From: Dongia sedimenti
Lineage (GTDB): Bacteria > Pseudomonadota > Alphaproteobacteria > Dongiales > Dongiaceae
Assembly (NCBI GenBank): GCA_030715195.1
Contig: JAUYVI010000006.1
Location: 496,001 to 560,000 of the forward strand
Direction of reading: 5' to 3'
Length of the DNA: 64,000 bases
Shown here piece after piece: positions 18,557 through 51,592 of this stretch (position 1 is the first letter of the stretch; each line of letters begins with the position of its first letter). Under the pieces are notes generated by a model that was not told where the DNA came from, did no database searches, and saw nothing but the letters and a program-made list of their open reading frames with translations. A program made the translations under genes and the position numbers.

Positions 18557-18765
18557 CCCGCCCGCTCCGAGCCCCGCTGCGAAGAAGCACGTAGATTCAA
18601 CATGATCCGGACTATAGCCGGTTCGAAGGACGGTGTCGAAACCTGAGCCCGCACGGAGCCCCGGGCGCGGGGGGCACTCATACCCATTCTGCAGGGCAGG
18701 CAAGTTGATTTGCCCCTATCTGGAGAATATACGTCACCCCGCCGGGTTCACCGGGCCTGATTGCC

Positions 18766-18769
18766 GGAG
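18766..18769 (+). promoter_or_regulatory. Ribosome binding site supporting a TTG start for cysD
   Basis: GGAG followed by a 7-base spacer and TTG at 18777. No ATG in a suitable position precedes the conserved CysD N-terminus, so this site decides the start. Confidence 0.6.
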
Positions 18770-18776
18770 CACGCGA

Positions 18777-19691: not shown

Positions 19692-21577
19692 TGAGCGCGG
19701 TGGAAGCGGACCTCAAGGCCTATCTCGCCGCGCAGGAGAAGAAGTCGTTCCTGCGGTTCCTGACCTGCGGCTCGGTCGATGACGGCAAGTCCACGCTGAT
19801 CGGCCGTCTGCTCTACGACACCAAGTTGCTGTTCGAGGATCAGCTCGCCGCGCTCGAGAAGGATTCGAAGAAGCACGGCACGACCGGCGACGACATCGAC
19901 TTCGCGCTGCTGGTGGACGGGCTGGAAGCCGAGCGCGAGCAGGGCATCACCATCGACGTCGCCTATCGCTTCTTCGCGACCGATAAGCGGAAGTTCATCG
20001 TCGCCGACACGCCGGGCCACGAGCAGTACACCCGCAACATGGCGACCGGCGCCTCCAATTCGGATCTCGCCGTCATCCTGATCGACGCCCGGAAGGGCGT
20101 GCTGACCCAGACGCGGCGCCATGCCTATATCGTCTCGCTGCTCGGCATTCGGCACGTGGTGCTGGCGGTCAACAAGATCGATCTCGTGGACTTCTCGGAG
20201 ACGGTGTTCCGCACCATCGTCGCGGCCTTCGAGAGTTTCGCGAAGCCGCTCGGATTCGCCAGCATCACGCCGATCCCGCTCTCGGCGCGCTTCGGCGACA
20301 ATGTGATCGCCAAGAGCGCACAAATGCCGTGGTTCGAGGGTCCGGCGCTGCTGCCCTATCTGGAAACGATCGACGTCAGCACGGCGCTGGCGGACAAGCC
20401 GTTCCGCATGCCGGTGCAATGGGTCAACCGTCCCAATCTCGACTTCCGCGGCTTCGCCGGCACGATCGTCAGCGGACGCGTGCGGCCTGGCGACGTCGTC
20501 GTGGTCGCGAAGTCCGGCCGCACCAGCTCGGTCACCCGTATCGTGACGATGGATGGCGACGTGACCGAGGCGGTTGCGGGCGAGGCGGTCACCATCACCC
20601 TGGCCGACGAGATCGACATCTCGCGCGGCGACGTGATCGCGGCGGCATCGGCGCGACCCGAGGTCACCGATCAGTTCGCGGCGCACCTGATCTGGATGGC
20701 GGACGAGGAGATGCTGCCCGGCCGACCCTACATGCTGAAGTTGGGGACGGCGACCGTACCGGCGCAGATCACCGACCTCAAGTACAAGACCGACGTCAAC
20801 ACCCTGGCGCACAATGCCGGCAAGACGCTGCACTTGAACGAGGTCGGCTACGCCAATCTCTCGCTCACCCAGCCATTGGCCTTCGACGCCTATCGAGAGA
20901 ACCGCGACATGGGCGGCTTCGTCCTGATCGACCGGTTCAGCAACGCGACGGTCGGCGCCGGGATGATCGATTTCGGTCTGCGGCGCGCCACCAACGTGCA
21001 CTGGCAGGCGCTGGACGTCGCCAAGTCCAGCCGCGCCGGATTGAAGGGCCAGCGGCCGGTCATCCTGTGGTTCACCGGCCTCTCCGGCTCGGGCAAGTCC
21101 ACCGTCGCCAACCTGGTGGAGCGTGCGCTGTTCGCCGAGGGCAAGCACACCTACATGCTGGACGGCGACAACGTGCGGCACGGATTGAACCGCGACCTTG
21201 GCTTCACCGATGCCGACCGGGTCGAGAACATCCGCCGCGTCGCCGAGGCGGCGAAGCTGTTCGTCGATGCGGGGACCATCGTGCTGGTCTCGTTCATCTC
21301 GCCGTTCCGCTCCGAGCGCCGCATGGCGCGCGAACTGGTGGAGCCGGGCGAGTTCATCGAAATCTTCGTCGATACGCCGATCGAGGTCTGCATGCAGCGC
21401 GACCCGAAGGGCCTCTACCAGAAGGCCATGGCGGGCGAGATCAAGAATTTCACCGGTATCGACAGCCCGTATGAAGCGCCGGAGCATCCGGAGCTGACCA
21501 TCAATACCGCGGAGGCGGAGCCGGCTTCCCATGCCGCGGCGATCGTCGCCTATCTGAAAGAGGCCGGATACGTATGA
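19691..21577 (+). CDS. cysNC: Bifunctional sulfate adenylyltransferase subunit 1 / adenylylsulfate kinase
   Basis: 628 aa. CysN half (about 1-440): GTPase with [10 protein letters not shown] at about 28, [12 protein letters not shown], and NKIDLVD. CysC half (about 455-628): APS kinase P-loop [25 protein letters not shown], and [13 protein letters not shown]. Together with CysD it converts sulfate to APS and then PAPS. CysN-CysC fusion is common in alphaproteobacteria (NodQ-like). It overlaps cysD by one base and the next gene by ATGA. PAPS is the donor for sulfotransferases, but no sulfotransferase is visible in this window. Confidence 0.97.
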
Positions 21578-36540: not shown

Positions 36541-37179
36541 ATGAATCGTTTGCTGATGTCGATGCTGGCCCTGGTCGCCGTAGCTCTTGCGGCGTTGCCC
36601 GCGAAGGCCGTGACCATCACCTACAGCACCAGCGGCAGCAACGCGCAGGTCTTCCTGACGCCGACCAGCAGCGGCGACATCGGCTATCCACCGAACAGCA
36701 CGTTCAGTCTCACCGAGCAATTAACCTTCGGCAATACCAGCGGCGGCTCCTACGGCCAGGCCTTTACTTACATCCCGTTCACCGTGGCGACTGCGGGCTT
36801 CCTCAGTGCGACCGTGACCGATCTCAGCATGTCGAACCCGAGCGCCAAGCCGCTCGAATGGTTGTCGCTCGCCCTCTATGAGTACACCGGGAGCGGGATG
36901 TCGTATCTGACCTGCGGCAGCGGCGGCGGCCTTTGCACCTTGGAAGCCTATGATGCCGATCCGCCGGTGGCGTCGATCGCTGCCGCCTTAGCGGCGGGCA
37001 CCCAGTACCTGCTGCGCGTCGGCTTCGGACTCTGTGGCTGCTCGGGCGATTTCGGAGGGATCCAGCTGACCGTGGCGACCACCCCGATCCCGCCGGCGAT
37101 GCTGCTGTTCGTCAGCGCTCTCCTCGGCATGGGTGGCGTGGCCTGGCGCCGGCGCCGGACGGTCGAAGCGGCGGCGTAG
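36541..37179 (+). CDS. Secreted protein with VPLPA-CTERM-like sorting tail (1)
   Basis: 212 aa. Sec signal peptide (MNRLLMSMLALVAVALAALP then AKA), a Ser/Thr/Gly-rich beta-type body with four cysteines in the second half, and a C-terminal tripartite sorting signal at 180-212: TTPIPPAMLLF motif, hydrophobic helix (VSALLGMGGVAW) and RRRR cluster. This is the layout of exosortase substrates, and the motif is a variant of VPLPA-CTERM. The exosortase at 50015-51592 is the likely processing enzyme. The body's function is not recognised; such proteins are often surface or matrix components. Confidence 0.87.
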   Translation: MNRLLMSMLALVAVALAALPAKAVTITYSTSGSNAQVFLTPTSSGDIGYPPNSTFSLTEQLTFGNTSGGSYGQAFTYIPFTVATAGFLSATVTDLSMSNPSAKPLEWLSLALYEYTGSGMSYLTCGSGGGLCTLEAYDADPPVASIAAALAAGTQYLLRVGFGLCGCSGDFGGIQLTVATTPIPPAMLLFVSALLGMGGVAWRRRRTVEAAA

Positions 37180-37276
37180 TTCGCGGCGGAACCTCTTGGC
37201 TTACTGTGCGTTCCGCTGCGGGTGTTTGAAGTATACGGCGTGAGAAGAAGGCAGCCGCGGGCTGGCTTGGTCTATT

Positions 37277-37281
37277 GGGGG
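37277..37281 (+). promoter_or_regulatory. Ribosome binding site supporting a GTG start
   Basis: GGGGG five bases before GTG at 37287. An in-frame TTG at 37275 has no site in front of it, and the GTG gives a clean signal peptide (KRFMMALAGAVLAIA), so this decides the start of the second sorted protein. Confidence 0.55.
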
Positions 37282-37286
37282 TCGAT

Positions 37287-37805
37287 GTGAAGCGCTTCAT
37301 GATGGCATTGGCGGGTGCGGTGCTGGCAATTGCCAGCATGCAGGTTTCGGCCAAGGCCGCGACATATGACTTGGGCGACATCACGGATAGCTCGAATGAC
37401 CAGTTCGGCGGCGCCCTGAATTTCCCCTTCCAGCCGGCGACCGTGATCAGCGACGACATAAAGTTCACCCTGTCGGCGCCGTCGTTCGTCAGCGGCGACC
37501 TGGACAATCTCCAACTCTTCTTCTTCATCCCGTTGGTGAATATCACGGGTCTCACGGCGACGTTCCTCGGCAATCCGCTGACCCTGGACAGCAACGGCAA
37601 CTTTTCGATCGCTGGAATGCTTGCGGCGGGCGACTATCTCATTCATATCGCTGGCACCACGTCTGGGTTCTTCGGCGGCCTCTACAACATGACGGTAACG
37701 GCGGCGACCACGCCGATCCCGGGTGCTCTGCTGCTTTTTGTTACGGCAATGGGCGGCATGGCGGGTTTCGTGGGGCTGCGTCGGCGCTGGTCAGCTGCAG
37801 CCTAA
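37287..37805 (+). CDS. Secreted protein with VPLPA-CTERM-like sorting tail (2)
   Basis: 172 aa from GTG at 37287. Signal peptide to about residue 24 (SMQVSAKA), a small beta-rich body without cysteine, and a sorting tail at 141-172: TTPIPGALLLF, hydrophobic stretch (VTAMGGMAGFVGL) and RRR. The tail closely parallels that of the preceding gene while the bodies differ, as expected for substrates sharing one sorting enzyme. It lies 107 bases after the first sorted-protein gene and is followed by a terminator. Function of the body is unknown. Confidence 0.85.
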   Translation: MKRFMMALAGAVLAIASMQVSAKAATYDLGDITDSSNDQFGGALNFPFQPATVISDDIKFTLSAPSFVSGDLDNLQLFFFIPLVNITGLTATFLGNPLTLDSNGNFSIAGMLAAGDYLIHIAGTTSGFFGGLYNMTVTAATTPIPGALLLFVTAMGGMAGFVGLRRRWSAAA

Positions 37806-38747: not shown

Positions 38748-40079
38748 TTGGCTGAAATCGCACAACAAGCCGGCCGGCAAACCTTTGCAAGCTCTGAGAG
38801 CAGTCCGCCGTTCGTGCCGGCCCGTCCGCGCGTCTGGCGCATCCCGGCCCTGCTGCGCTACACCATCGTCTTCGGACTGGGGAGCACGCTCATGCTCACC
38901 CGCTTTCAGCTGAACTTCGGCGGCGGGCTCTTCCTGAACGTCGGCACGATGGCGCAGTACCTCTTCATCATGGCGCTGCTCGCTTATGGCTTTGCCCGCA
39001 TCGATCCGATCCGCCTGCTGTTGCTGATCGCCTGCGGCTGCGTGTCGATGGTCAGCCTAGTCGCCAATTCCGACGTGGCTTCGAAGAATTCGGTGCTCCT
39101 GTTCGCGGTCGCCTATCTGGCGTGGATCTTCGTGGCCCGCAACTCGGAGCGCACGGAGCATCTTTCGCGCTGGACCCTCGCGGTCTTCGGCAACCTCATG
39201 ATGGTCTGCGCGGTCGCCGGTATCCTGCAATTCTTCCTGCAATTCGTAATCAAGGATTACTGGCTGCTCGACTACACGTCGTATCTGCCAGAGGTGATCC
39301 GGGGCGGCGGCGCCTACAACACCGTGATCCCGGTCAACAATTTCTTCAAATCCAATGGCTTCTTCTTCCGCGAGCCCTCGACCTTCTCGCAGTTCCTCGC
39401 TTTGGCGCTGCTGTGCGAGTTCGCCACGCAGAAGCGGTGGCGGCCGGTTCGACTGGCGACGCTCGGCCTCGCCTTACTGCTCTCCTATTCGGGCACCGGC
39501 CTGCTCACGCTGTTCATCGGCCTGCTGTTCCCGCTCGGCCGGAAGACCGTCTTCCGACTCATCCTCCTGGCGATCGCCGCCGCGGTGATCCTGTCGCCGC
39601 TGGGCGATGCCCTCAACCTGTCGTTCACAGCCGGTCGAATTGGCGAGTTCTCCTATGCCGGGTCGAGCGGCTTCGCGCGCTTCGTCGCGCCGTTCATGAT
39701 CGTGCGCAACTACCTCGACGCGACGCCCTGGTCGTTGTTGATCGGATTCGGTCCCGGGACGATCTTCAGGATTATCGCCTCCGCCGGTGCCGACTTCCAG
39801 ATCGCCGATCCGACCTGGGCGAAGCTGTTCATCGAATACGGCGTCCTCGGCTTCATTGCGATCGCGGGCCTGTTCTTGTATTCCATTCTGAAGTCGCGCG
39901 CGCCGAGCGAGCTGCGCGCCGGAATCGCGTTCGGATGGTTGGTCATCTGGGGCGGTATTCTGCTGGCGCCCGACATTACCAGCATCCTCTTCATGCTGGT
40001 TGCCGTCTGGCCGCGTCCGCCGGCACCGAAAAAGCAGCCGCTCTCACCTCCTGTGGCGACGGCGCAAGCGAGACCATGA
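38748..40079 (+). CDS. Wzy-like polysaccharide polymerase / O-antigen ligase-family membrane protein
   Basis: 443 aa starting at a TTG (38748); no ATG occurs before the first membrane helix. About ten hydrophobic segments (VFGLGSTLMLTRFQLN, YLFIMALLAYGFARI and others), a large loop with FFKSNGFFFREPSTFSQFLA (the FREPS segment is typical of Wzy-like polymerases), and LIGFGPGTIF..ADPTWAKLFIEYG. It would join repeat units in the periplasm. Only distantly similar to the protein at 17123-18556, so the two may serve different glycans. A GT2 gene begins at the next base after its stop. Confidence 0.85.
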   Translation: MAEIAQQAGRQTFASSESSPPFVPARPRVWRIPALLRYTIVFGLGSTLMLTRFQLNFGGGLFLNVGTMAQYLFIMALLAYGFARIDPIRLLLLIACGCVSMVSLVANSDVASKNSVLLFAVAYLAWIFVARNSERTEHLSRWTLAVFGNLMMVCAVAGILQFFLQFVIKDYWLLDYTSYLPEVIRGGGAYNTVIPVNNFFKSNGFFFREPSTFSQFLALALLCEFATQKRWRPVRLATLGLALLLSYSGTGLLTLFIGLLFPLGRKTVFRLILLAIAAAVILSPLGDALNLSFTAGRIGEFSYAGSSGFARFVAPFMIVRNYLDATPWSLLIGFGPGTIFRIIASAGADFQIADPTWAKLFIEYGVLGFIAIAGLFLYSILKSRAPSELRAGIAFGWLVIWGGILLAPDITSILFMLVAVWPRPPAPKKQPLSPPVATAQARP

Positions 40080-41135
40080 ATGACTGAGCCGAGAATTTCG
40101 CTTTCCGTCATCATCGCCAACTACAACTATGCGGAATTCGTCGGGATTGCGATCGAGAGCGCCCTCGCGATCGACTGGCCGGATGTCGAGGTCGTCGTCG
40201 TCGATGACGGCTCGACCGACAATTCGCGTGCGGTAATCGAGAAATTCGGCGACCGCGTCATCGCCATCTTCCAGGAGAATGCCGGGCAGATCGCGGCCCG
40301 CAACCTGGGCTTCGCCCGTTCGCGCGGCGAGGCAATCATCCTCCTCGATTCCGACGACGCGCTGCATCCTTCGATCATGCGCGAGGTTGTTGAGGTCTGG
40401 CATCCGGGCGTCAGCAAGGTGCAGTTTCGGATGCGCGGCATCGACGCCGAGGGCCGGCCGAACGGTTCGGTCTTCCCGCAATACCGGGAGAGCACGACGC
40501 CGGCCGAAGTCCGGCGCTGGGCGACCGCCACCGGCTCCTATCCGGCGCCGCCCTGTTCGGGGAATCTGTTCTCGCGGGCCTGCCTCGAGGCGATCTTTCC
40601 GCTCGACGATTGCTGCGGCAAGGCGCCGGATACCTGTTGCGTCGCCGCCGCGCCGTTCCTCGGCGAGGTCGTGACGATCGCAAAGCCGCTCGCCGATTAT
40701 CGCGTGCACGGGCGCAACGACGGCGCCATGTCCACGCTGGACCGGAGCCGGTTCGGCTGGCAGACGGTCAGCGCCATTCAGCGCTTCGAATACTCGCAGA
40801 GAATCGCCCGCCGCGTGGGCCTCGATGTCTCCGATCGCGGCAAGCATCTGGCTTTCGCCCAGCTCAGGACTCGCATTGCGTCCTTTCGGCTGGCGCGCGA
40901 GGGGCATCCTATCCTGGGCGACAATACGCTGCGCATTCTGCTCGATCTGGTCCGCGCCGGCCTCACACCGCAAGGCGCATCATTGAAAGAAACGGTCACC
41001 ACCGTGGCCTGGGGTGCGCTCGTGCTGCTGATGCCGCGGGGCATTGCCGAGACATTGGTTCATTGGCGTTTCAGCCCCGGTGCCCGTCCGCCGGTGCTGC
41101 GCAGCGCACTTTCTGCAATGGGTATTGTGCGATAG
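40080..41135 (+). CDS. Glycosyltransferase family 2
   Basis: 351 aa, cytoplasmic GT-A fold: LSVIIANYNYAEFVGIAIES, VVVVDDGSTDNSRAVIE at about 37-53, and the DXD-like LLDSDDALHPS near 93. The C-terminal third has a hydrophobic segment (ETVTTVAWGALVLLMPRGIA) that may attach it to the membrane. It adds one sugar during repeat-unit assembly; donor and acceptor are unknown. It directly follows the polymerase gene (no gap) and precedes the MBOAT cassette by 53 bases. Confidence 0.9.
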   Translation: MTEPRISLSVIIANYNYAEFVGIAIESALAIDWPDVEVVVVDDGSTDNSRAVIEKFGDRVIAIFQENAGQIAARNLGFARSRGEAIILLDSDDALHPSIMREVVEVWHPGVSKVQFRMRGIDAEGRPNGSVFPQYRESTTPAEVRRWATATGSYPAPPCSGNLFSRACLEAIFPLDDCCGKAPDTCCVAAAPFLGEVVTIAKPLADYRVHGRNDGAMSTLDRSRFGWQTVSAIQRFEYSQRIARRVGLDVSDRGKHLAFAQLRTRIASFRLAREGHPILGDNTLRILLDLVRAGLTPQGASLKETVTTVAWGALVLLMPRGIAETLVHWRFSPGARPPVLRSALSAMGIVR

Positions 41136-41188: not shown

Positions 41189-42628
41189 ATGGATGTCGCT
41201 TCCATAACTTTCGTGCTCTTCGCCTTAGCCGCGGCCCTGATCTTCCATGCGGTGGCCAATCCGCTCTATCGCAAGACCGTCCTCACCCTCGCCAATCTGG
41301 CCTTCATCGCCAGCTACCTCGCCGAGGTCCGCCAGGTCCTGCCGCTGGCCTTCTTCCTGCTGTTCGGCTACGGCATGATCGAGCTGGTGCGGCAGCGCCG
41401 CTCGGGTTGGGCGCTCACCCTCGGCCTCGTTTTCACGCTGGCGCTTTATATATTCCTGAAACGATTCTCGTTTCTCTCCGACCTACCGACGCTGCCTTTC
41501 TCCTATCTCATCATCGGCCTTTCCTACATCCTGTTCCGCATCGTCCATCTGATCGTCGATGCGCGTTCGGAGCCCTGGGACAAGCCGATCGAGCCATGGT
41601 CCTATCTCAACTACACCTGCAACTTCCTGACCATGGTCTCGGGGCCGATCCAGCGCTACGAGGATTTCCGCAAGGGTGAGCAGTCGCTCGGCCAGGCGCT
41701 GAACGCGGACACCGTCTATCGCAGCTTCTCGCGGATCATCGTCGGCTTCGTCAAAGTCTCGGTGATCTCCGCCACCGCAAACTATCTGTTCCAGGATCTC
41801 TCGGCGCATGTCATCGCCGGCAGCGACACGATGCCCCTGGTCAAGTTCACCGTCTATTATGGCGCGGCGGCGGCGGCCTATACCGGATACCTCTACTTCA
41901 ATTTCTCCGGCTACATGGACATCGTCATCGCCTTCGGCGGGCTGTTCAACCAGCAGCTCCCGGAAAACTTCAACAAGCCCTTCGCCGCGCGCAGCTTCCT
42001 GGAATTCTGGAACCGCTGGCACATGACGCTGTCGGACTGGTTCAAGATCTATCTCTTCACGCCGCTGATGCGCTTGCTCGCGACCAACTTCCAGTCGCCC
42101 GCCCTGCTGCCCTATCTCGGCGTCATTGCCTTCTTCATCACCTTCCTGGTGATGGGCGTCTGGCACGGGACGACCTTGGTCTTCGTCATCTACGGCCTGC
42201 TGATGGGCGCCGGCGCCAGCGTCAACAAGATGTGGCAGGTGAAGCTCGGCCAAGTGCTCGGCAAGAAGCGCCATCAGGCGTTCAACAAGCAGTCGGTTTA
42301 CATCTATGTCTGCCGGGGCCTCACCTTCGCCTACTTCACCGTCGCCGTAACCTGCCTCTGGGTCGATATGGTGCAGCTTGAGAACCTCTTCGCGCGTCTC
42401 GGCGCGATCGGCCTCGCGGCAGCGATGCTCGGCCTGACCGTCGTGGCGGCTTTCGGGGCGGTGGCTTGGGACATCGGCGCGGCAATCTGCGCCCGGGTCA
42501 AGGGCGTGGCGATCCGCTTCGAGAACGTCGTGACGCGGAACCTGTGGCTTGCCAGCCTGATCGTGCTGATCGCCGCGGTTTCGTCGTTCTATCACAAGGC
42601 TCCGGATTTCGTGTATCGGGCATTCTGA
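41189..42628 (+). CDS. MBOAT-family O-acyltransferase (AlgI/DltB-like)
   Basis: 479 aa, about eleven membrane segments. MBOAT signature: FWNRWHMTLSDWFKIYLF around 272-290 and the catalytic His in VMGVWHGTTLVFVIYG near 325. These proteins move acyl groups across or to the outer face of the membrane; AlgI acetylates alginate and DltB passes D-alanine from carrier protein DltC. It overlaps the following SGNH gene by TGATG, the usual AlgI-AlgX / DltB-DltD pairing. Because an acyl carrier protein and an FkbH enzyme follow, the donor may be carrier-bound rather than acetyl-CoA. Confidence 0.93.
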   Translation: MDVASITFVLFALAAALIFHAVANPLYRKTVLTLANLAFIASYLAEVRQVLPLAFFLLFGYGMIELVRQRRSGWALTLGLVFTLALYIFLKRFSFLSDLPTLPFSYLIIGLSYILFRIVHLIVDARSEPWDKPIEPWSYLNYTCNFLTMVSGPIQRYEDFRKGEQSLGQALNADTVYRSFSRIIVGFVKVSVISATANYLFQDLSAHVIAGSDTMPLVKFTVYYGAAAAAYTGYLYFNFSGYMDIVIAFGGLFNQQLPENFNKPFAARSFLEFWNRWHMTLSDWFKIYLFTPLMRLLATNFQSPALLPYLGVIAFFITFLVMGVWHGTTLVFVIYGLLMGAGASVNKMWQVKLGQVLGKKRHQAFNKQSVYIYVCRGLTFAYFTVAVTCLWVDMVQLENLFARLGAIGLAAAMLGLTVVAAFGAVAWDIGAAICARVKGVAIRFENVVTRNLWLASLIVLIAAVSSFYHKAPDFVYRAF

Positions 42629-43713
42629 TGAAGTGGATTCTGAAACAGACGGCATGGCTGCTCGCGAGTCTCGCGGTTCTCTATATCGTCATCCTGGGTG
42701 TCAGCCTGTTGCTGGTGCCGATGCATCACCAGGAGGGCGGGCTTGAGACCCGGCAGGCTTCCAAGACGCTCTATATGACGGAACCCAAGTACTTCTTCCT
42801 CAACCGCGCGTCGCTCCGGACCGATGCGGACAGGCTCATCCTGCTCGGCGCTTCCAACACCCTCGGCGGTTTCCGGCTGGACGAGCTGCAGCCTCTGGTA
42901 CCGAACCTCCAGGTCAACAACCTCTCAATCAGCGGCGCCAACATTACGGAGATGCGCCAAGCCTACGACATGATCCGCGCAGTGCAATCGCCGGACGGCA
43001 AGAAGCGCAGCACCTATGTAATCGGCGTCTGGTACGGGTTGTTCGTGCCGGATTCGCTGAAATGGAATACCCCGGATCGCCATGCCGGGGACACCGATCT
43101 CGACATCGAGCGCTTCCGCTACGGTTTCTACCGGCGGGGTGCCGACGGCCCGGTCCAGATTCTGCCGATCGAGGATCTGGAGTTCGGGTTGCTGCTGATC
43201 CATCCTTATCTCACCTTTGACAAGCTGGTGCGCGACGTCACGGTGGGCTTGCGCGCGCGCCTGCTGAAGGGGAAACCGGCCTTGACCGATCACGAGCGTA
43301 ACCAGACCGTAATCCCGCCGGAACAGCAGGCGAAGTACATCGCCTTCTGGGAGGCGCAGTTCGGCGGCGCCACCGCCGTTCCAAAGGAACAGTTCGAGGT
43401 CCTGACTGCTCTGGTCGATGACATTCTGGATGACGGGGGGACCGTTGTGGTGGCGGACCTGCCGCTTCCGACCTGGCTCGCCGGGACCGCGCTCAATCAG
43501 AGTTATAACGCGCTGAAGACGGACTGGCTGAAGGCGATGGCCAGCCGCAAGGGCTTTTCTTTCGTCGAGATGCAGTCCACTTTCGGTGACGATGAGTTTG
43601 TCGACGAGGTGCATCCGAAGCCCCGGATCACCAAGGAATGGTCGCACGTCCTCGCCACGTCGATCAGCAACGAGACCGCGAAGGCCGGGGTCGCTCCCGC
43701 GGTCACCCCGTGA
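42628..43713 (+). CDS. Membrane-anchored SGNH-type protein, DltD/AlgX-like partner of the MBOAT
   Basis: 361 aa from the ATG at 42628. One N-terminal membrane anchor (about 7-31), then a periplasmic SGNH/GDSL-like fold: Ser block LLGASNTLGGF near 73-83, Gly/Asn region (NNLSISGANITEM), and the C-terminal Asp-His block DEVHPKPR near 328. This matches the pattern of proteins that finish acyl transfer to an extracellular glycan. It overlaps the MBOAT gene by one base and the VOC gene by GTGA. The family assignment is by motif and context, not by close similarity. Confidence 0.78.
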   Translation: MKWILKQTAWLLASLAVLYIVILGVSLLLVPMHHQEGGLETRQASKTLYMTEPKYFFLNRASLRTDADRLILLGASNTLGGFRLDELQPLVPNLQVNNLSISGANITEMRQAYDMIRAVQSPDGKKRSTYVIGVWYGLFVPDSLKWNTPDRHAGDTDLDIERFRYGFYRRGADGPVQILPIEDLEFGLLLIHPYLTFDKLVRDVTVGLRARLLKGKPALTDHERNQTVIPPEQQAKYIAFWEAQFGGATAVPKEQFEVLTALVDDILDDGGTVVVADLPLPTWLAGTALNQSYNALKTDWLKAMASRKGFSFVEMQSTFGDDEFVDEVHPKPRITKEWSHVLATSISNETAKAGVAPAVTP

Positions 43714-44162
43714 GCGACGGCGTCAACCATTCCGGTCTGGCCTTTCATCACTTCGGCCTTGCCGTCAAACGGCCTGATCAGGCCTTTCTCTATCTGGTGA
43801 CGCTGGGCTATCGCAAAGGGGCGACTTGCTGGGATCCGCTCCAGGGCGTCAACCTGGCGATGATGCATCACGCCGACATGCCGGATGTGGAAGTCATCTG
43901 GCCAGGTGACCAGCCCTCGCCGATCGACAACCTGATCAAGGGCGGCAAGGCGCTGATCTATCACCAGTGCTACACGTCCGCGGATCCGGCGGCGTCGATC
44001 GCGGTCTTGCGCGAGCTTGGGCTCGACGTGATCGAGATCTCCCCGCCGAAGCCGGCGGTCCTCTTCGACGGGCTAGAAGTCTCGTTCTACAGCGTCGCGC
44101 GGGTCGGGGTGATCGAGATCATCCGCGGCGAGCCGGTCGTGCATCTGGCTGCCGCTAAATAG
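43710..44162 (+). CDS. VOC-superfamily protein (glyoxalase/methylmalonyl-CoA epimerase-like)
   Basis: 150 aa from GTG at 43710, which overlaps the preceding stop as GTGA. Two beta-alpha-beta-beta-beta modules: FHHFGLAVKRPDQAFLYL at the N-terminus and LIYHQCYTSADPAASIAVLR in the middle, with candidate metal ligands His in FHHFG, Glu in VEVIW, His in YHQCY and Glu in VIEII. VOC proteins isomerise or rearrange small acids or thioesters using a divalent metal. Coupling to the MBOAT pair and closeness to ACP and FkbH suggests it handles the acyl group or its thioester; this is inference. Confidence 0.85.
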   Translation: MSDGVNHSGLAFHHFGLAVKRPDQAFLYLVTLGYRKGATCWDPLQGVNLAMMHHADMPDVEVIWPGDQPSPIDNLIKGGKALIYHQCYTSADPAASIAVLRELGLDVIEISPPKPAVLFDGLEVSFYSVARVGVIEIIRGEPVVHLAAAK

Positions 44163-44344
44163 CCCGCAGAGGCTTCCTGCTCGCCTCGCAACCAAGTGTG
44201 CCCTCGCGCGTTTACTCGCGCCGCGGCGATTGACAGCGGAACGCGGATCCCGTCAGATTGTGCTATGCACAAATCAGGTGATGAGCGTATATTAAGCGAT
44301 TGAAATCCTGAGACAAATTTGCAAACTTCGTTAACGAGAGAGTG

Positions 44345-44584
44345 ATGCAAGAGGGTCAGATCTACGAGCGACTGAATGTGATCTTTGGCGATGTCTTCGA
44401 CGACGATAGCCTCGCGTTGAAGGCGGAGACCACCGCAGATGACGTCGATGGCTGGGACAGTCTCAGCCATATCCGGCTGGTGCTCTCAGTCGAAAAGGCC
44501 TTCAGCGTGAAATTCTCCGCCGCCGAAGTCGGGAAGCTGAAGAATGTCGGCGAACTGGTCGGGCTGATCCAATCCAAGATCTGA
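44345..44584 (+). CDS. Acyl carrier protein
   Basis: 79 aa from the ATG at 44345 (a GTG one codon earlier is also possible). Acidic four-helix carrier with the phosphopantetheine site Ser in GWDSLSHIRL at about residue 40. Not the fatty-acid ACP, which has a different surface; resembles dedicated carriers paired with FkbH or DltC-like systems. The gene lies 182 bases after the VOC gene and 43 before the FkbH gene. TTGACA at 44230-44235 may mark a separate promoter, but no good -10 box follows. Confidence 0.92.
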   Translation: MQEGQIYERLNVIFGDVFDDDSLALKAETTADDVDGWDSLSHIRLVLSVEKAFSVKFSAAEVGKLKNVGELVGLIQSKI

Positions 44585-44627
44585 AGCCGATCGACCGCTG
44601 ACCGCCGTTCCTCTCGGGGACCGGCCA

Positions 44628-46604
44628 ATGTTAGGAGATGATAGCCCGCGGATGGCCGACGATCTCTACGCGCGCCTTGCCTGGCTGCCGCCGAAACCAG
44701 ACGATTTCTCAGCAAGCTGTCGGGCCCTGCTCGCCGAAGAGACGGCGTCCGCGGCCGATTTCGGCCGCCGGGTCCAGGCACTGGCGCAATATGCGCTCGA
44801 CGAGAATGCGCTCAACCGCCTGGCCAAGGTGATCGCGCTGGCGCGTGGCGCCGGAAAGTCGCTGGCGCCGCTCACGCCGTTCCGCCTTGGCGTCCTCAGC
44901 AACACGACCTCGCATTTCCTGGTGCCGGCGCTGGTCGCGACCGCGGTGCGGCACGGCATCGACCTAGTCTGCGAAGAGGCCGATTTCGATCAGGTGATCC
45001 AGGAAGCGCTCAATCCGGATTCGATGATCAACCGGGGCAAGTTCGACGCGGTGCTGGTGGCGATCGACCATCACGGCCTGCCGCTGCGCCCTGCTCCCGG
45101 CGACGCGGAGGCGGCGGCCCGTTCGGTTGACGAGGCGATGAAGCAGCTCGCCACGGTCCGCGAGGGAATCCGCGCCAACAGCAACGCGCTCTGCATCGTG
45201 CAGACCCTGGCACGGCCGCCGGAAACCCTCTTCGGCAGCTTCGATCTCGGCCTCGCGGGGACCTTGCGCAATCTGATCGACGGCTTCAATCGGGCTCTGG
45301 CCGAAGACGTCGCGGGCAGCAAGGACATCCTGCTCGACGTCGCGCAAATGGCCGAGACCGTGGGGCTCGCCAATTGGCACGACCCCACGCTCTGGAACAT
45401 CGGCAAGCTACCTTTTGCCAGCCAGTACATCGCGCTCTACGTCGACCACGTCTGCCGGCTGATCGCCAGCTTGCGCGGCAAGAGCCGGCGCTGCCTGGTG
45501 CTCGATCTCGACAACACGCTCTGGGGCGGGGTCATCGGCGATGACGGGCTCGAAGGCATCCTGATCGGGCAGGGCGACGCCACAGGCGAGGCGCATCTCG
45601 AAGTCCAGCGCGTGGCGCTGAGCCTGCGCGATCGCGGCATCGTGCTTGCCGTCTCCTCGAAGAACAACGACGACGTCGCGCGCAAGCCGTTCAAGGAACA
45701 TCCGGAGATGCTGCTGAAGGAGGACCATCTTGCGGTCTTCCAGGCGAACTGGAGCGACAAGGCGAGCAACATCACGGCGATCGCTGAGGAGCTGGCGCTC
45801 GGCCTCGAATCCTTCGTCTTCCTCGACGACAATCCGGCCGAGCGCAACATTGTGCGCCAGACCCTGCCCGCGGTCGCGGTGCCGGAACTCCCCGCCGACC
45901 CCGCCTATTATGCGCGGGTGCTGCTGGCCAGCGGCTATTTCGAGGCGATCACGCTCTCGGACGAGGACCGCAAGCGCGCGGCCATGTATCAGGACAATGC
46001 GCGGCGCGTCGCGTTGCAGAAGAACGTCGCCGACATCGGATCCTATCTGCTGTCGCTCGACATGGTGATGACCGTGCAGCCGTTCGACGAAGTGGGTCGG
46101 GCGCGCATCGCCCAGCTCATCGCCAAGTCGAACCAGTTCAACCTGACGACCCGCCGCTACACCGAGGTCGAAGTGGCCGAAGCCGAGCGCGATCCGGATT
46201 GCATGACTCTGCAGATTCGCCTCGCCGACACGTTCGGCGACAATGGCATGATCTGCGTCATCATCTGCCGCCGCAGCGACCGGGCCTGGCATATCGACAC
46301 CTGGCTGATGAGCTGCCGCGTGCTCGGCCGTCGGGTCGAGGAAGCGACGCTCCAAGAAATCCTGTTCCAGGCGCGCCAGCATGAGATCGATACCCTGATC
46401 GGCACCTACCGCCCGACCGAGCGCAACAATCTCGTGGAGAAACACTACGAGAAGCTGGGCTTTACTCTGCTCGAGCGGAAGGATGATGGGACCACCGTCT
46501 GGCAGCTCAGCGTCGCCGAGACGCCCGAGGTCGAATTGCCGATGCAGGTCCGCCGTCTCGGTTTCGCCGAAAAGGCACCGCTGCCGCTGGCGGCGGAGGC
46601 CTGA
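44628..46604 (+). CDS. FkbH-like protein (HAD-IIIC phosphatase with GNAT-like C-terminus)
   Basis: 658 aa. Three parts: N-terminal SGNH-like region (about 60-280), HAD-IIIC domain with LVLDLDNTLWGGVIGDDG near residue 293 and VFLDDNPAERN, and a C-terminal acetyltransferase-like region (about 440-620, with IGTYRPTERNNLVEKHYEKL). Characterised FkbH enzymes load a glyceryl group from 1,3-bisphosphoglycerate onto an ACP and dephosphorylate it, giving D-glyceryl-ACP. With the ACP just upstream and the MBOAT/SGNH pair in the same run of genes, it could supply a glyceryl- or lactyl-type substituent to the polysaccharide. Confidence 0.93.
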   Translation: MLGDDSPRMADDLYARLAWLPPKPDDFSASCRALLAEETASAADFGRRVQALAQYALDENALNRLAKVIALARGAGKSLAPLTPFRLGVLSNTTSHFLVPALVATAVRHGIDLVCEEADFDQVIQEALNPDSMINRGKFDAVLVAIDHHGLPLRPAPGDAEAAARSVDEAMKQLATVREGIRANSNALCIVQTLARPPETLFGSFDLGLAGTLRNLIDGFNRALAEDVAGSKDILLDVAQMAETVGLANWHDPTLWNIGKLPFASQYIALYVDHVCRLIASLRGKSRRCLVLDLDNTLWGGVIGDDGLEGILIGQGDATGEAHLEVQRVALSLRDRGIVLAVSSKNNDDVARKPFKEHPEMLLKEDHLAVFQANWSDKASNITAIAEELALGLESFVFLDDNPAERNIVRQTLPAVAVPELPADPAYYARVLLASGYFEAITLSDEDRKRAAMYQDNARRVALQKNVADIGSYLLSLDMVMTVQPFDEVGRARIAQLIAKSNQFNLTTRRYTEVEVAEAERDPDCMTLQIRLADTFGDNGMICVIICRRSDRAWHIDTWLMSCRVLGRRVEEATLQEILFQARQHEIDTLIGTYRPTERNNLVEKHYEKLGFTLLERKDDGTTVWQLSVAETPEVELPMQVRRLGFAEKAPLPLAAEA

Positions 46605-46626: not shown

Positions 46627-47553
46627 TCATTTTTTCGGCGCGCTCGGGTTGCAAGCTGCCTGGTTGACCGCGTTCGTCACGCGCTGACATACGCGGACAT
46701 AGTCGATCTGCAAGTAGGCCGGGAATTTGGAGTTATCGATTCCGCCCGCGCCGGCCCATGCGCCGCCCACCGCCAGGTTGATGAGAATATGCGCGGGACC
46801 GGCCCGCCGACCGTCCTTGTAGAGCCAGCGATACGTCTTCTGCCACAGCTTCTTTCCGTCCAGATAGACAGTGACGGTGTCGTCCGTTTCCCAGAGCATT
46901 CCGTAGACATGCCAGTCTCTCGTCAGGTCTGTGGGCGCTCGATAGAAGGTCCATTGGGCATTGAAGTTCGAGTCACGGTAGATCCATCCGCCGCCCTGCG
47001 TGTTGGGAACGCTGAGCGCGAGATTGGAATGAACCATGTTCGGAAACTCGGTGATGCCGTTCGGCGCAAATTCCATGATATCGATTTCCGGCGGCCAGCC
47101 GAGATAGCCGTTCTCGTCAAAGTCCGAATTGAGCCAGAAGGAAGGAAACATGCCGCGGCCGGGTGGCAGTTTGATGCGCGCCTCGAAATAGCCGTATCGG
47201 AAGGTCGGTCGAGAGCGGATCATTCCGGATGGATAAACCCCGTTGGCGTTCCGTGGCTTCGCAACCAGAGTGAGGATCCCGTTCCGCAGGACATGGTTGC
47301 CATCCTCGCGGTACCTCTGCTGCTCATCGTTGAGGTGATCCCGGGTGCCATTGTCGTAGATGAAGCGCGTGAACCAGGTGGAAGTATCCAGACTCGCCTG
47401 GTTGAAATCGTCTTGAAAGACCACGATCCAACCCGCGGCGTCGGCCGATTTCATCGGAAAAAGCATTGCGCAAAGAACGAAAGCCATTGCGGCGCATGCA
47501 GCTGCAACGGATGAGCCGCTCCGTCGCAGCTGGCGTCCCCCGGTGTGACCCAT
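46627..47553 (-). CDS. Glycoside hydrolase family 16, secreted beta-glucanase-like (1)
   Basis: 308 aa from the ATG at 47553, preceded by GAGGGG. Signal peptide or anchor to about residue 37 (FVLCAMLFPMKSADAA). GH16 catalytic motif EIDIME (in WPPEIDIMEF), plus GMIRSRPTFRYGYFEARIKL and WHVYGMLWETDDTVTVYLDG. GH16 enzymes cleave beta-1,3 or beta-1,3/1,4-glucans and galactans; ExoK/ExsH-type members trim the producer's own EPS. It is the downstream member of a tandem pair with the gene at 47603. Convergent with the FkbH gene. Confidence 0.92.
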   Translation of the reverse strand: MGHTGGRQLRRSGSSVAAACAAMAFVLCAMLFPMKSADAAGWIVVFQDDFNQASLDTSTWFTRFIYDNGTRDHLNDEQQRYREDGNHVLRNGILTLVAKPRNANGVYPSGMIRSRPTFRYGYFEARIKLPPGRGMFPSFWLNSDFDENGYLGWPPEIDIMEFAPNGITEFPNMVHSNLALSVPNTQGGGWIYRDSNFNAQWTFYRAPTDLTRDWHVYGMLWETDDTVTVYLDGKKLWQKTYRWLYKDGRRAGPAHILINLAVGGAWAGAGGIDNSKFPAYLQIDYVRVCQRVTNAVNQAACNPSAPKK

Positions 47554-47602
47554 TTTCCCCTCAAATTCGCGGCAGCCGGCTCCCCACTGCGCCGACCAAC
47601 CC

Positions 47603-48520
47603 TTACTTCGGCGCAAACTCGCTGCGGCCGCAGGTCTCTTGCCCTTGGACATTGGTCGCGCGCTTGCAGACGCGGACATAGTCGACCTGCAGCGATGCGG
47701 GGAATTTCGAATTGTCGATTCCGCCGGCGCCGGCCCATTTCCCGCCGACCGCGAGATTGATCAGGATATGCGCGGGGCCGGCCTGGCGGCCGTCCGGGTA
47801 GAGCCAGCGATACGTCCGCTGCCACAGTTTCTTGCCGTCGAGATAGGCCGTGACGGTGTCATCGGTGTCCCACAGCAGACCGTAGACGTGCCAGTCCTTG
47901 GTTAGGTCTTCCCTGGCGTTGTAGAAGGTCCACTTCTGATCGAAGTTCGGGTCGCGATAGAGCCACTCACCACCCTGCACATTCTTGGTCAGCGCAACGT
48001 TGGAGTGGACCATGAACGGATGCTCGGTCACGCCGTTCTGCACGTACTCCATGATGTCGATCTCGGGCGGCCAGCTCAGCTTGCCGTTCTCGTCGTAATC
48101 GGAGTTGAGCCAGAAGGCGGGCCATAATCCCTTGCCGGCCGGCATCTTGATCCGCGCCTCGAAATAACCGTAGCGGAAGGTCTGGCGTGATCGGATCATC
48201 CCGGAAGTGTATACGCCGGACGAGTTCGGTTTCTTTGCGACCAGGTTGAGCACGCCGTCTTCGAAGACGTGATTGCCGCTCTCGCGGTACCGCTGCTTCT
48301 CGTCGTTGAGGTGGTCCTGTTTCCCGTTGTCGTAGATGTAGCGCGTGAACCACTTGGATTTATCCAGGCTCGACCCGTCGAAGTCATCCTCGAAGGTGAT
48401 CACCCACCCTTGTGCGAGGGTCGGCTTCGGCGCACCGGCGAAGGCAACGGCAGCGAGTGCCAGGACGGCGGCCAGCGCGGGCGCTTTCAGGCGGTGCAAG
48501 CGGCTCAAAGCGTCAGGCAT
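47603..48520 (-). CDS. Glycoside hydrolase family 16, secreted beta-glucanase-like (2)
   Basis: 305 aa from the ATG at 48520; AAGGAG with a 5-base spacer selects it over a GTG two codons upstream. Signal peptide ends near PTLAQGW. The catalytic motif EIDIME is in WPPEIDIMEYVQ. It aligns with its neighbour across the whole mature region (for example WFTRYIYDNGKQDHLND against WFTRFIYDNGTRDHLND), so the pair is a tandem duplication with clear divergence. Both end with two cysteines in similar positions (RVCKRATN, ETCG). Likely acts on the EPS made here. Confidence 0.93.
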   Translation of the reverse strand: MPDALSRLHRLKAPALAAVLALAAVAFAGAPKPTLAQGWVITFEDDFDGSSLDKSKWFTRYIYDNGKQDHLNDEKQRYRESGNHVFEDGVLNLVAKKPNSSGVYTSGMIRSRQTFRYGYFEARIKMPAGKGLWPAFWLNSDYDENGKLSWPPEIDIMEYVQNGVTEHPFMVHSNVALTKNVQGGEWLYRDPNFDQKWTFYNAREDLTKDWHVYGLLWDTDDTVTAYLDGKKLWQRTYRWLYPDGRQAGPAHILINLAVGGKWAGAGGIDNSKFPASLQVDYVRVCKRATNVQGQETCGRSEFAPK

Positions 48521-48670
48521 TTCCACTCCTTGAGTTCGGGAAGACGGGCGGCCGGTTCACCATTGCTTCGGCGCGCTACGCTGTCAACGCGGGCCGGGCC
48601 GTATGGTTAAAGGCGCGGTAGACCGTTAGGCTGCGGTGATTGGAAATCCCGCCGGGCGCGGCTTGTTCCA

Positions 48671-49657: not shown

Positions 49658-50014
49658 TCCGTACCGTCGACCTTTTGTTGCGCGGGAAATCGTCCCGACT
49701 CTTTCTCACCTGCGCCTCCCGGGAATTTCGGCCGCGATTCCGCGCCGCTTGGCCGGCGATGGTTAACCACACCGGCAAACCCGCCCGAAGGTTTGAGCCC
49801 AACGGACCGGCAGCTTCGACAATAGACGAAAGCCATGACAATTGGAATGAGCCCACCCGGACCTGATCGCAAGACCGCCGCAGCCAACTGGGTGCGCCGA
49901 CAGCGGGAAAACGGCTGAAAATCATGGTTGTTCCCGCCTCGATCCGTTACCATGCGCCGCGGTCCAGGAAGGCGCCGCTTGCCGGGAGAAACGGTCATTT
50001 TCGACACCCAAAGG
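49658..50014. other. Divergent intergenic region upstream of exosortase (357 bp)
   Basis: Nothing gene-like is supported. Short antisense frames occur but have no recognisable domain. No clear promoter boxes, operator or terminator were seen; the exosortase start is uncertain and could move leftward to 49952 (ATG) or 49928 (TTG). Confidence 0.5.
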
Positions 50015-51592
50015 ATGTCCCAGCAGATGCCCAGTATCGGGCCAGGCCTGCAGCTCGCACCGGTGGTCCGTTACGGGATCCTGCCGGCGATCGCACTCCT
50101 GCTCGGCGGCTACATCTTCTGGACCCCGCTTAAGGTCATCGTCGGGATCTGGACCACCTCGGAGGAATACAATTACGGCCCGCTGATCCCGGTGCTGGCC
50201 GCGGCGATGCTGGCCCGCGACCTCCGGCGCTCGACGGCGGGCGAGGGGCCGGGCTGGATCGGCTTCTCATTGCTCCTGATCGGCCTGGTCTTCGGCGTGT
50301 TCGGCAAGGTCGCGGCCTTCGTCTATCTCGCCGAGATCGGCATCTTCTTCTTCCTGGTCGGCCTGTTCGCCTCCGTGGCGGGCGACGCGCGGGCCCGTTC
50401 CGTCTGGCCCGGGCTGCTCTATCTCGGTTTCGGCATTCCGCTCGCGCGCCTGCTCCAGGCCAATCTCTCGGCGCATCTGCAGCTGATCTCCTCGCAGATC
50501 GGTGCCGGTACGATCCGGATCTTCGGCATCCCGGTCTTCCTCGACGGTAACATCATCGATCTCGGCGCGATCCAGCTTGAGGTCGCGGCCGCCTGCAGCG
50601 GCCTGCGTTATCTTTTCCCGCTGGCCAGCTTCGGCTTCCTTTGCGCCTATCTCTATCGGGGACCGGCCTGGCAGCGCGTGCTGATCCTCTTCAGCACGGT
50701 GCCGATCACCATTCTGCTGAATTCGCTTCGCATCGGCGTCACCGGGATTCTGGTCGATCGCTTCGGCATCGAGGCCGCGCAGGGCTTCTTCCACGACTTC
50801 GAAGGCTGGCTGATCTTCTGCGGCTGCGTCGCGATCCTGTTTCTGGAGATCAAGATCCTCTGCCTGTTCGGCGGCGACCGCGCGCTGCTGCGCCGGCTTG
50901 ACTTCTCTTGGCCGCCCTCCGCCCCGAAACAGCCGGGCCGGGGCACTGCGTCGAAATCGGCGATCGCGGCTTTGCTCGTCGTCGTCGCGACGGCCGCGGT
51001 TTTTCCGATGCTGAAGCTTCCCGATGCGACCGCGCCGGCGCGCGCCGAGTTCAGCCACTTCCCGCGCAACATCGATCGCTGGTCGGGCACCGATCTTGCG
51101 GTCGATGCCGTGGCGCTCGATTCCCTGAAGCCCACCGATTATCTCAGCGTCAATTTCGTCGATCTCGCGCAGAAGCAGGCGGTGGCGCTCTGGGTCGCCT
51201 ATTACTCGACCCAGGAAATCGGCGAGGCGATCCACTCTCCGCGCATCTGCATTCCCGCCGGTGGCTGGCGGATCAGCGAGATCCGCCCGGTCACGGTCAC
51301 GCTCGCCGACGAAGCCGGTGCGCTCACGGTCAACCGCGCGATCATCCAGAAGGGCAACGAGAAGGCGCTGGTCTATTATTGGTTCCAGGGTCGTGGCCGG
51401 ATCGAGGCCAATGAGTTCGTCGTCAAGCTGCACCTGATGGGTGACGCGATGTTGCGGCAGCGGACCGATGGCGCTCTGGTGCGGTTGGTGACTCCGATTC
51501 TCGAGACCGAGCAGGTCGCCGCCAGCGAGCAGCGGCTGCAATCGTTCCTGGCCGAACTGCGTCCGCAGCTGACGCCCTATCTCCCAGATTGA
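50015..51592 (+). CDS. xrtD: Exosortase with fused EpsI domain, XrtD type (VPLPA-CTERM specific)
   Basis: 525 aa from the ATG at 50015. N-terminal half: about eight membrane helices with the exosortase catalytic set, Cys194 in AAACSGLRYL, Arg239 in NSLRIGVTG and His260 in GFFHDFEGWL. C-terminal half (about 320-520): EpsI domain (HSPRICIPAGGWRISEI and VVYYWFQGRG-like segment). The fusion and the presence of VPLPA-like substrates at 36541 and 37287 match exosortase D. It would cleave those proteins' tails at the membrane and attach them to an unknown glycan or lipid. Followed by a GT2 gene on the same strand. Confidence 0.92.
   Translation: MSQQMPSIGPGLQLAPVVRYGILPAIALLLGGYIFWTPLKVIVGIWTTSEEYNYGPLIPVLAAAMLARDLRRSTAGEGPGWIGFSLLLIGLVFGVFGKVAAFVYLAEIGIFFFLVGLFASVAGDARARSVWPGLLYLGFGIPLARLLQANLSAHLQLISSQIGAGTIRIFGIPVFLDGNIIDLGAIQLEVAAACSGLRYLFPLASFGFLCAYLYRGPAWQRVLILFSTVPITILLNSLRIGVTGILVDRFGIEAAQGFFHDFEGWLIFCGCVAILFLEIKILCLFGGDRALLRRLDFSWPPSAPKQPGRGTASKSAIAALLVVVATAAVFPMLKLPDATAPARAEFSHFPRNIDRWSGTDLAVDAVALDSLKPTDYLSVNFVDLAQKQAVALWVAYYSTQEIGEAIHSPRICIPAGGWRISEIRPVTVTLADEAGALTVNRAIIQKGNEKALVYYWFQGRGRIEANEFVVKLHLMGDAMLRQRTDGALVRLVTPILETEQVAASEQRLQSFLAELRPQLTPYLPD

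Follow-up and report, generated by a model that had tools for sequence, protein, structure and literature searches.

Known routes of polysaccharide acylation

DltA is the adenylating loader of the Dlt pathway, and the loading of glyceryl from 1,3-bisphosphoglycerate has been proven for relatives of FkbH. In the Discussion of PMC12148441, polysaccharide acylation by MBOAT/SGNH pairs is explained by acyl-CoA donors, and Dlt, with its DltC-carried D-Ala, is the carrier-protein case. The Dlt pathway (teichoic acid D-alanylation; DltC and DltB-DltX-DltD) combines a carrier thioester donor, an MBOAT, the tyrosine of an FxYxxF motif, and an SGNH transferase; according to the same paper, PatA has been shown to use FxYxxF as its acyl-Tyr motif, and this acyl-shuttle motif occurs in both PatA and DltX, the latter being a separate one-helix mini-protein (PMC12148441). 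In the PatA/PatB and AlgI-type O-acetylation systems, FxYxxF is fused to the C-terminus of the MBOAT and the SGNH partner is a separate protein; these systems are described as using an acyl-CoA donor and no carrier protein (PMC12148441). In tetronate and methoxymalonyl-ACP biosynthesis, the glyceryl-ACP step relies on an FkbH-like protein and a standalone ACP, and FkbH-type loading of glyceryl from 1,3-bisphosphoglycerate is proposed for relatives (PMC7489565).

We compared these systems with a cassette in the window, the 64,000-nucleotide stretch of Dongia sedimenti contig JAUYVI010000006.1 that was analysed. An earlier note on this DNA had linked a carrier protein with its loading enzyme to a transfer pair of the Dlt/Alg type, and both the gene content and the conserved neighbourhood bear this out. 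The cassette resembles Dlt in all four elements listed above; however, its loader is FkbH and not the adenylating DltA, its MBOAT falls under the DltB cut-off and has the motif fused, and it sits in a Gram-negative exopolysaccharide locus, where the predicted acyl is a hydroxy acid and not an amino acid. No adenylating loader such as the DltA of a Dlt operon was found among the five cassette proteins, and no match to the curated DltC and DltD models was listed for the ACP and the SGNH protein. It shares the fused motif and the separate SGNH partner with the PatA/PatB and AlgI-type systems and differs from them by having an ACP and a likely loader.

Gene content of the cassette

The MBOAT, SGNH, VOC, ACP, and FkbH ORFs are contiguous on the plus strand from 41189 to 46604 and lie within an exopolysaccharide locus. 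All five ORFs and the four junctions described in the earlier note were found again when the sequence was re-read. The genes for the MBOAT (41189..42628, 479 aa) and the SGNH-type transferase (42628..43713, 361 aa) meet in TGATG, with the stop at 42626-42628 and the SGNH ATG at 42628, and the VOC gene (43710..44162, 150 aa) starts with the GTG at 43710 in the junction GTGA. The gap between the VOC and ACP genes is 182 bp when the ACP (44345..44584, 79 aa) starts at the ATG at 44345 and 179 bp with the alternative GTG at 44342. The ACP-FkbH gap is 43 bp, measured to the start of the FkbH ORF (44628..46604), whose true start codon may differ. Immediately 5' of the MBOAT gene lies a GT2 glycosyltransferase gene (40080..41135, plus strand; PF00535), which has homologues of 44-45% adjoining the cassettes of two Bradyrhizobium loci, L078 and L081. 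The preceding ORF (38748..40079, plus strand) had no Pfam or NCBIfam match and may encode a Wzy-like polymerase, being 31-32% identical to stretches of L081 and L078. One PPTase match was found in the genome.

Loading enzyme and carrier protein

The FkbH protein scored 297 bits against TIGR01686, for which the cut-off is 147, and also matched TIGR01681 and the FkbH_N model PF21211. It comprises FkbH_N, a HAD-IIIC part (DLDNTLWGG), and a C-terminal part with WLMSCRVLGR. DLDNT is invariant in the FkbH alignment A1; DxDxT was present in 114 of 118 FkbH ORFs, and the SCRVLGR stretch was matched in 89 of the 118. The standalone ACP beside it, with a DSL phosphopantetheine serine (GWDSLSH), passed the PF00550 cut-off (1.9e-4) and stayed below the cut-off of every NCBIfam ACP model. 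An ACP was located no more than 300 bp from FkbH in 80 of the 98 higher-scoring loci. By analogy with the FkbH family, the acyl unit would be glyceryl. Compared with tetronate and methoxymalonyl-ACP biosynthesis, the five genes lack the FabH-like, dehydrogenase, and O-methyltransferase partners and have a transfer pair instead.

VOC protein and nature of the acyl group

The VOC protein matched PF13669 (1.8e-11), and its fold model (pLDDT 90) resulted in Foldseek matches to 3hdp, the glyoxalase I of Clostridium acetobutylicum, and 1jc5, a methylmalonyl-CoA epimerase; 3hdp was also its PDB sequence match. Among 20 VOC relatives (alignment A3), H14, E61, and E136 are invariant and H85 is nearly so. 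These H/E/H/E positions, which we take to be the metal-ligand positions of the reference enzymes, align with 3hdp, and fold and residues together place the protein in the methylmalonyl-CoA epimerase/glyoxalase I superfamily. It scored 22 bits against the methylmalonyl-CoA epimerase equivalog, below the cut-off of 115. The VOC protein differs from 3hdp in that the two are 28% identical in the structural match and its substrate would be ACP-bound. The rearrangement to lactyl that the earlier note had suggested for the VOC protein is less likely, since the fold and the metal-site residues point first to epimerisation; judging from the model, the most likely chemistry is epimerisation at the alpha carbon of a thioester, which fits better than lactyl rearrangement.

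Some observations would suit an acyl group other than glyceryl, such as lactyl, pyruvyl, O-methylglyceryl, or similar, processed by the VOC protein or by enzymes encoded elsewhere: glyoxalase I yields 2-hydroxyacyl thioesters, a SAM methyltransferase gene adjoins the VOC gene in L042 and L055, and a MaoC-like dehydratase gene lies between the ACP and FkbH genes in L041. However, no methyltransferase, dehydratase, or oxidoreductase is encoded among the five cassette genes, and the two FkbM-type methyltransferases found in the window lie at distances of about 7 and 11 kb. We regard a processed acyl as unlikely and keep glyceryl as the candidate unit.

Transfer pair and acyl-shuttle motif

The MBOAT passed the PF03062 cut-off (1.1e-13), has the conserved MBOAT histidine (WHG), and ends exactly in FVYRAF, which fits the shuttle motif FxYxxF. 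Against the DltB model TIGR04091, it scored 177 bits, below the 375-bit cut-off. The earlier label of an AlgI/DltB-like acyltransferase holds for the MBOAT family but not for a DltB-like layout, since FxYxxF is fused C-terminally, as in the PatA type. Because of this fused motif, the system appears as a Dlt-like carrier combined with a Pat-like MBOAT.

An exact C-terminal FxYxxF was found in 48 of 62 MBOATs versus 1 of 1559 other ORFs of at least 300 aa, where the control ORFs run from stop to stop and include many frames that are not genes, and the single positive is probably the MBOAT of L121 read in another frame. Seven related MBOATs do not carry the C-terminal motif; each of their loci has a separate one-helix mini-ORF, four of which end in the motif and three in a variant. 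A mini-ORF with the strict motif was present in 4 of 7 loci with a motif-less MBOAT and in 0 of 53 with a motif-bearing one (Fisher 7e-5), counted with the MBOAT's own C-terminus excluded (raw tallies including it are 43/53 strict and 48/53 relaxed) and with L121, which has the motif in another frame, and L132, cut by the contig, left out. The relaxed pattern resulted in 7 of 7 versus 1 of 53 (L053, 1761-1841); the strict figure is the fairer one because the relaxed pattern was widened after the mini-ORF of L087 had been seen.

The SGNH-type transferase matched PF13472 weakly (E 0.0023, under the gathering score). Nevertheless, its GASN and DEVHP motifs are accompanied by invariant G74, S76, D326, and H329 in alignment A4, which provide the Ser and the Asp-His pair. 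The predicted structure, of moderate confidence (pLDDT 70), has an N-terminal helix at residues 2-28, and the best fold match of this model was DltD (E 1.6e-4), with PatB also among the matches.

Co-occurrence across genomes

The five-family co-occurrence search, proposed beforehand in the earlier note as a check, revealed a recurring module. When 146 Bradyrhizobium genomes were sampled, the window-type SGNH turned up in 10, and all 10 loci, including L078 and L081, contain all five genes, abutting on one strand in the order FkbH-MBOAT-SGNH-ACP-VOC. This order differs from that of the window, and the set has therefore been kept under rearrangement. The two Bradyrhizobium genomes that were checked each have one window-type VOC relative, sited in the cassette.

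From 115 FkbH loci, 101 had an ACP, 62 an MBOAT, and 60 both within the fetched flank, with copies left out (L135 of L037, L103 of L042, and L119 of L043) and with a named-genome scan restricted to the best 80 of at least 589 confirmed matches, which favours close relatives. Six further loci (L016 and L173-L177) had an MBOAT in three cases (L016, cut by a contig end, L173, and L177) and an ACP in four; with these included, both were present in 63 of 121. In genome-sampled loci, an MBOAT was found in 19 of 23 with an FkbH score of at least 560 bits versus 0 of 20 below, a line that was drawn after seeing the data and a comparison that left out one contig-edge FkbH fragment adjoining an MBOAT. 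The PF03062 background amounted to 183 matches in 385 genomes, or about 0.2-0.3% per 18 kb for an assumed mean genome of 2.5-4 Mb. Co-occurrence and synteny exceed chance.

The common core is the trio MBOAT-ACP-FkbH, and the window-type VOC and SGNH are rarer. A window-type VOC (at least 44% identity) was restricted to L042 and its copy L103, L055, and the Bradyrhizobium loci, and none was found in the genomes of L080, L107, and L147; the VOC gene is optional to the module. By profile, the window-type SGNH occurred in just 3 of 118 FkbH loci, and a crude motif search gave SGNH-like neighbours in 36 of 65 MBOAT loci, several of them clearly false.

No MBOAT was seen in the fetched flank of 36 of the 98 loci with an FkbH score of at least 560 (36 of 100 with the added loci), some of whose contigs end early, and FkbH-ACP therefore probably serves other acceptors as well. 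A genome-wide search of 25 of these 36 resulted in PF03062 in 18 and AT3 (PF01757) in 24, anywhere in the genome. The many FkbH-ACP loci without a nearby MBOAT would agree with two independent systems, in which the MBOAT/SGNH pair is an acetyl-CoA-dependent exopolysaccharide O-acetyltransferase and FkbH/ACP/VOC feeds something else, either a small-molecule product or the modification of a sugar in the cytoplasm, as would the fused FxYxxF, which is the layout of acetyl-CoA systems (PMC12148441). We consider such an arrangement improbable, even more so than a processed acyl: the MBOAT frequency near higher-scoring FkbH in the sampled genomes is far above background, all five genes stay together despite the changed order, and 61 of the 95 rows on one side of a starred FkbH-tree branch have an MBOAT (the short L072 left out). 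Moreover, some MBOATs are Dlt-type, short and with a separate mini-ORF, and in Dlt such a layout accompanies a carrier protein.

Homologues of the GT2, Wzy, and epimerase genes of the window also lie near the 10 Bradyrhizobium cassettes, and L078 and L081 share GT4 and GH16 homologues with the window in addition. No FkbH relative was found in the six congeneric genomes searched, and the locus was thus probably acquired. Both observations could be explained by hitchhiking, with the five genes being neighbours only through transfer of whole exopolysaccharide loci between genomes and having no functional tie; however, MBOAT-ACP-FkbH recurs in many loci where no other window gene was matched, which makes this explanation highly improbable.

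Proposed mechanism

We consider it probable that the five genes constitute a carrier-protein acylation module for the exopolysaccharide of the locus. FkbH would place a C3 acyl from 1,3-bisphosphoglycerate as a thioester on the adjacent ACP, giving glyceryl-S-ACP, and the VOC protein would act on this ACP-bound acyl, its most likely activity being that of an alpha-carbon epimerase. Next, the MBOAT would accept the acyl from the ACP on the cytoplasmic side, and the WHG histidine would direct it to the Tyr within FVYRAF at the MBOAT's own C-terminus. From this Tyr, the membrane-anchored SGNH protein would receive the acyl on its Ser (GASN) and pass it to the polysaccharide as an ester in the periplasm. 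The gene content, the motifs, the conservation of the module, and the shuttle motif or its stand-in mini-ORF are demonstrated at the sequence level. As for the chemistry, we infer the acyl identity, the direction of flow, the VOC reaction, and the acceptor polymer.

The complete route is more tentative, and we hold it possible rather than probable: FkbH would load a glycolytic acyl phosphate on the ACP without CoA or an adenylating enzyme, a glyoxalase-fold epimerase would convert D-glyceryl to L-glyceryl on the carrier, and the MBOAT Tyr and SGNH Ser would relay it to the polysaccharide.

Meaning of the finding

The earlier note had regarded the combination of FkbH with a Dlt-type pair as undescribed, and our partial literature coverage agrees: a search by title and abstract, with most subscription journals and preprints outside its scope, found no work joining FkbH or an ACP to an MBOAT for polysaccharides. 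Likewise, the gellan literature searched, in the parts available, names no gene for the L-glyceryl ester of gellan. If the module reading is true, it would add a third donor route beside acyl-CoA and DltC-carried D-Ala, and the data suggest that carrier-protein donors have a wide distribution beyond Dlt, fed by a loader known from polyketide work. If the conversion of D- to L-glyceryl is also true, it would provide a genetic route to the L-glyceryl esters on bacterial gums, for instance gellan. The module would also allow one to predict, and to test, which polymers bear glyceryl-type esters, would give genetic access to acyl content, on which the gel behaviour of gums depends, and would direct attention to mini-proteins resembling DltX beyond the Dlt operon.

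Gene content of the cassette and its locus

The window contains an exopolysaccharide (EPS) locus with a TIGR03025 polyprenyl glycosylphosphotransferase, which also encodes a Wzx flippase, an XrtD exosortase, glycosyltransferases, two GH16 enzymes, and a polysaccharide pyruvyl transferase; its export-like and chain-length-like proteins score under the curated cut-offs. The cassette lies inside this locus (41189-46604, plus strand) in the order MBOAT-SGNH-VOC-ACP-FkbH, and the five genes and junctions described in the earlier note were borne out from the sequence. FkbH and PPTase each have a single match in the Dongia sedimenti genome, and the cassette MBOAT is the only MBOAT there to score above the Pfam cut-off.

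The XrtD exosortase is fused to an EpsI domain (TIGR04152, 508 bits) and is accompanied by two small proteins with tails judged by eye to be VPLPA-CTERM-like (exosortase and small proteins, 36541-37805 and 49928-51592); the first small protein had no NCBIfam match. Two adjacent, overlapping GH16 ORFs (46627-48526, minus strand) are likely a tandem duplication; the cassettes of two Bradyrhizobium loci, L078 and L081, likewise have GH16 homologues nearby. At the locus edge, the sulfate activation genes CysD and CysN-CysC (18633-21577, plus strand) hint at a sulfated polymer.

Among the cassette proteins, the SGNH protein has a single N-terminal helix, and its model, of moderate confidence (pLDDT 70), had DltD as the top Foldseek match (6o93, E 1.6e-4), with PatB also listed (8tlb, 1.5e-3). 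The DSL serine is present in the ACP. The FkbH motifs DLDNT and WLMSCRVLGR were both invariant across ten relatives; the only solved relative found by sequence was PDB 3slr (BF1531), listed as an uncharacterised protein. For the VOC model (pLDDT 90), structural matches included the C. acetobutylicum nickel glyoxalase I (2.3e-11) along with methylmalonyl-CoA epimerases; H14, E61, H85, and E136 of the VOC protein align with identical residues in 3hdp.

Co-occurrence of FkbH, ACP, and MBOAT

An FkbH match was found in 36 of 385 sampled genomes of the class and in four of the 17 family genomes, the window's own counted in both, and no FkbH relative was found in six congeneric genomes. This distribution in the genus and family makes acquisition of the cassette by transfer probable.

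Using profiles made from the window proteins, we examined 118 FkbH loci, 115 after removal of three copies. The FkbH ORFs carried DxDxT in 114/118 and the SCRVLGR stretch in 89/118 by pattern. In the 115 loci, drawn in part from the best 80 of at least 589 confirmed named-genome matches, an ACP was found in 101, an MBOAT in 62, both in 60, and some VOC protein in 24; with six further FkbH loci added, both were found in 63/121. The MBOAT background is about 0.2-0.3% per 18 kb, from 183 Pfam matches in the same 385 genomes and an assumed mean genome size of 2.5-4 Mb. The MBOAT-ACP-FkbH trio was found in Pseudomonadota and in eight loci from metagenome bins of Acidobacteriota, Eremiobacterota (Vulcanimicrobiota), Nitrospinota, Verrucomicrobiota, Myxococcota, and Omnitrophota, single bins being possibly misassigned.

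Among the genome-sampling loci, an MBOAT was present in 19/23 at an FkbH score of at least 560, a line drawn after seeing the data, versus 0/20 below it; this sets aside L177, whose FkbH is a contig-edge fragment adjoining an MBOAT. In a FastTree phylogeny of 115 rows, one side of a starred branch held 95 rows, among them the window's own and 61 of the 63 MBOAT rows, and MBOAT presence required 16 changes versus 38 with shuffled labels. The MBOAT was absent from the fetched flank in 36 of the 98 loci scoring at least 560.

Acyl-shuttle motif and mini-ORFs

FxYxxF is an acyl-shuttle motif, and acyl-Tyr formation is demonstrated in PatA according to PMC12148441; the cassette MBOAT ends in FVYRAF. 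If the ACP-loaded group passes over Tyr, every MBOAT in these loci is expected to have the motif or a stand-in. The exact C-terminal motif was found in 48/62 MBOATs versus 1/1559 other ORFs of at least 300 aa, and the motif or a close variant in 53/62. From the remaining nine, one MBOAT was truncated by the contig end and one had the motif in another frame, leaving seven. Each of the seven loci contains a short ORF (33-65 aa) with a single hydrophobic stretch; four of these mini-ORFs end in FxYxxF and three in a variant (IAYQQF twice, LVYERF once): L041 11860-11973 (-), L050 5422-5571 (+), L055 5479-5586 (-), L087 9843-9956 (+), L118 9611-9805 (+), L123 11251-11349 (+), and L150 12369-12485 (+). 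The majority adjoin an MBOAT, SGNH, or FkbH gene, and that of L050 lies about 4.4 kb from the MBOAT. The 53 loci with a motif-bearing MBOAT had no independent mini-ORF by the strict pattern and one by the relaxed pattern (Fisher, 7e-5 and 2e-8, respectively), the relaxed pattern being partly selected after seeing the data.

The mini-ORFs look like DltX. PMC12148441 describes non-Dlt MBOAT/SGNH systems as having neither a carrier protein nor a DltX-like mini-protein, with the motif fused to the MBOAT.

The complete five-gene set

The window-type SGNH is rare by profile (3/118 loci, drawn in part from the best 80 of at least 589 named-genome matches), and it was found in 10/146 sampled genomes of the genus of L078. 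All ten loci (eight newly fetched, L078, and L081) have FkbH-MBOAT-SGNH-ACP-VOC abutting on the same strand, whereas the window has MBOAT-SGNH-VOC-ACP-FkbH, and homologues of the window GT2, Wzy, and epimerase are present in the stretch at all ten. The L171 MBOAT is divided over two frames, the second part terminating in FVYKAF. On the neighbourhood search proposed in the earlier note, the five genes occur together at these ten loci, besides the 60/115 loci with MBOAT and ACP near FkbH.

The window-type VOC is confined to few loci. In five named-locus genomes searched, two Bradyrhizobium genomes had one relative each, located in the cassette, and the other three had no match. Elsewhere, candidate SGNH partners came only from a crude motif search (36/65 MBOAT loci), false matches among them.

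Proposed mechanism and acyl unit

The simplest reading is that the glyceryl group would pass from the ACP to the MBOAT tyrosine, the SGNH serine, and then the polymer, since the five cassette genes include the transfer pair and none of the partners by which glyceryl-ACP enters polyketides. No description of an FkbH/ACP plus MBOAT/SGNH system was found in the literature searched, with partial coverage.

Glyoxalase I and methylmalonyl-CoA epimerase both act at the carbon adjoining a thioester or hemithioacetal; by this analogy, the VOC protein would most simply be an epimerase of the carrier-bound acid. The D form of glyceryl would be yielded by 1,3-bisphosphoglycerate. Gellan bears L-glycerate on C-2 of a glucose (PMC9104527), and L-glyceryl is also given in PMC4392319. 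We suggest that an epimerase would bridge the D-form precursor and the L-glycerate of gellan.

A MaoC-like dehydratase gene lies between the ACP and FkbH genes of L041 (9953-10384, minus strand), which suggests a dehydrated acyl unit at this locus. Three loci with FkbH and ACP have a gene of 306-315 aa adjoining the VOC gene (L042 6395-7728, plus; L055 4112-5457, minus; L114 9887-11274, plus), a Pfam methyltransferase in L042 and L055 and judged by look alone in L114. The methyltransferases by the VOC gene in L042 and L055, and the dehydratase by the ACP in L041, suggest that the acyl unit differs among loci.
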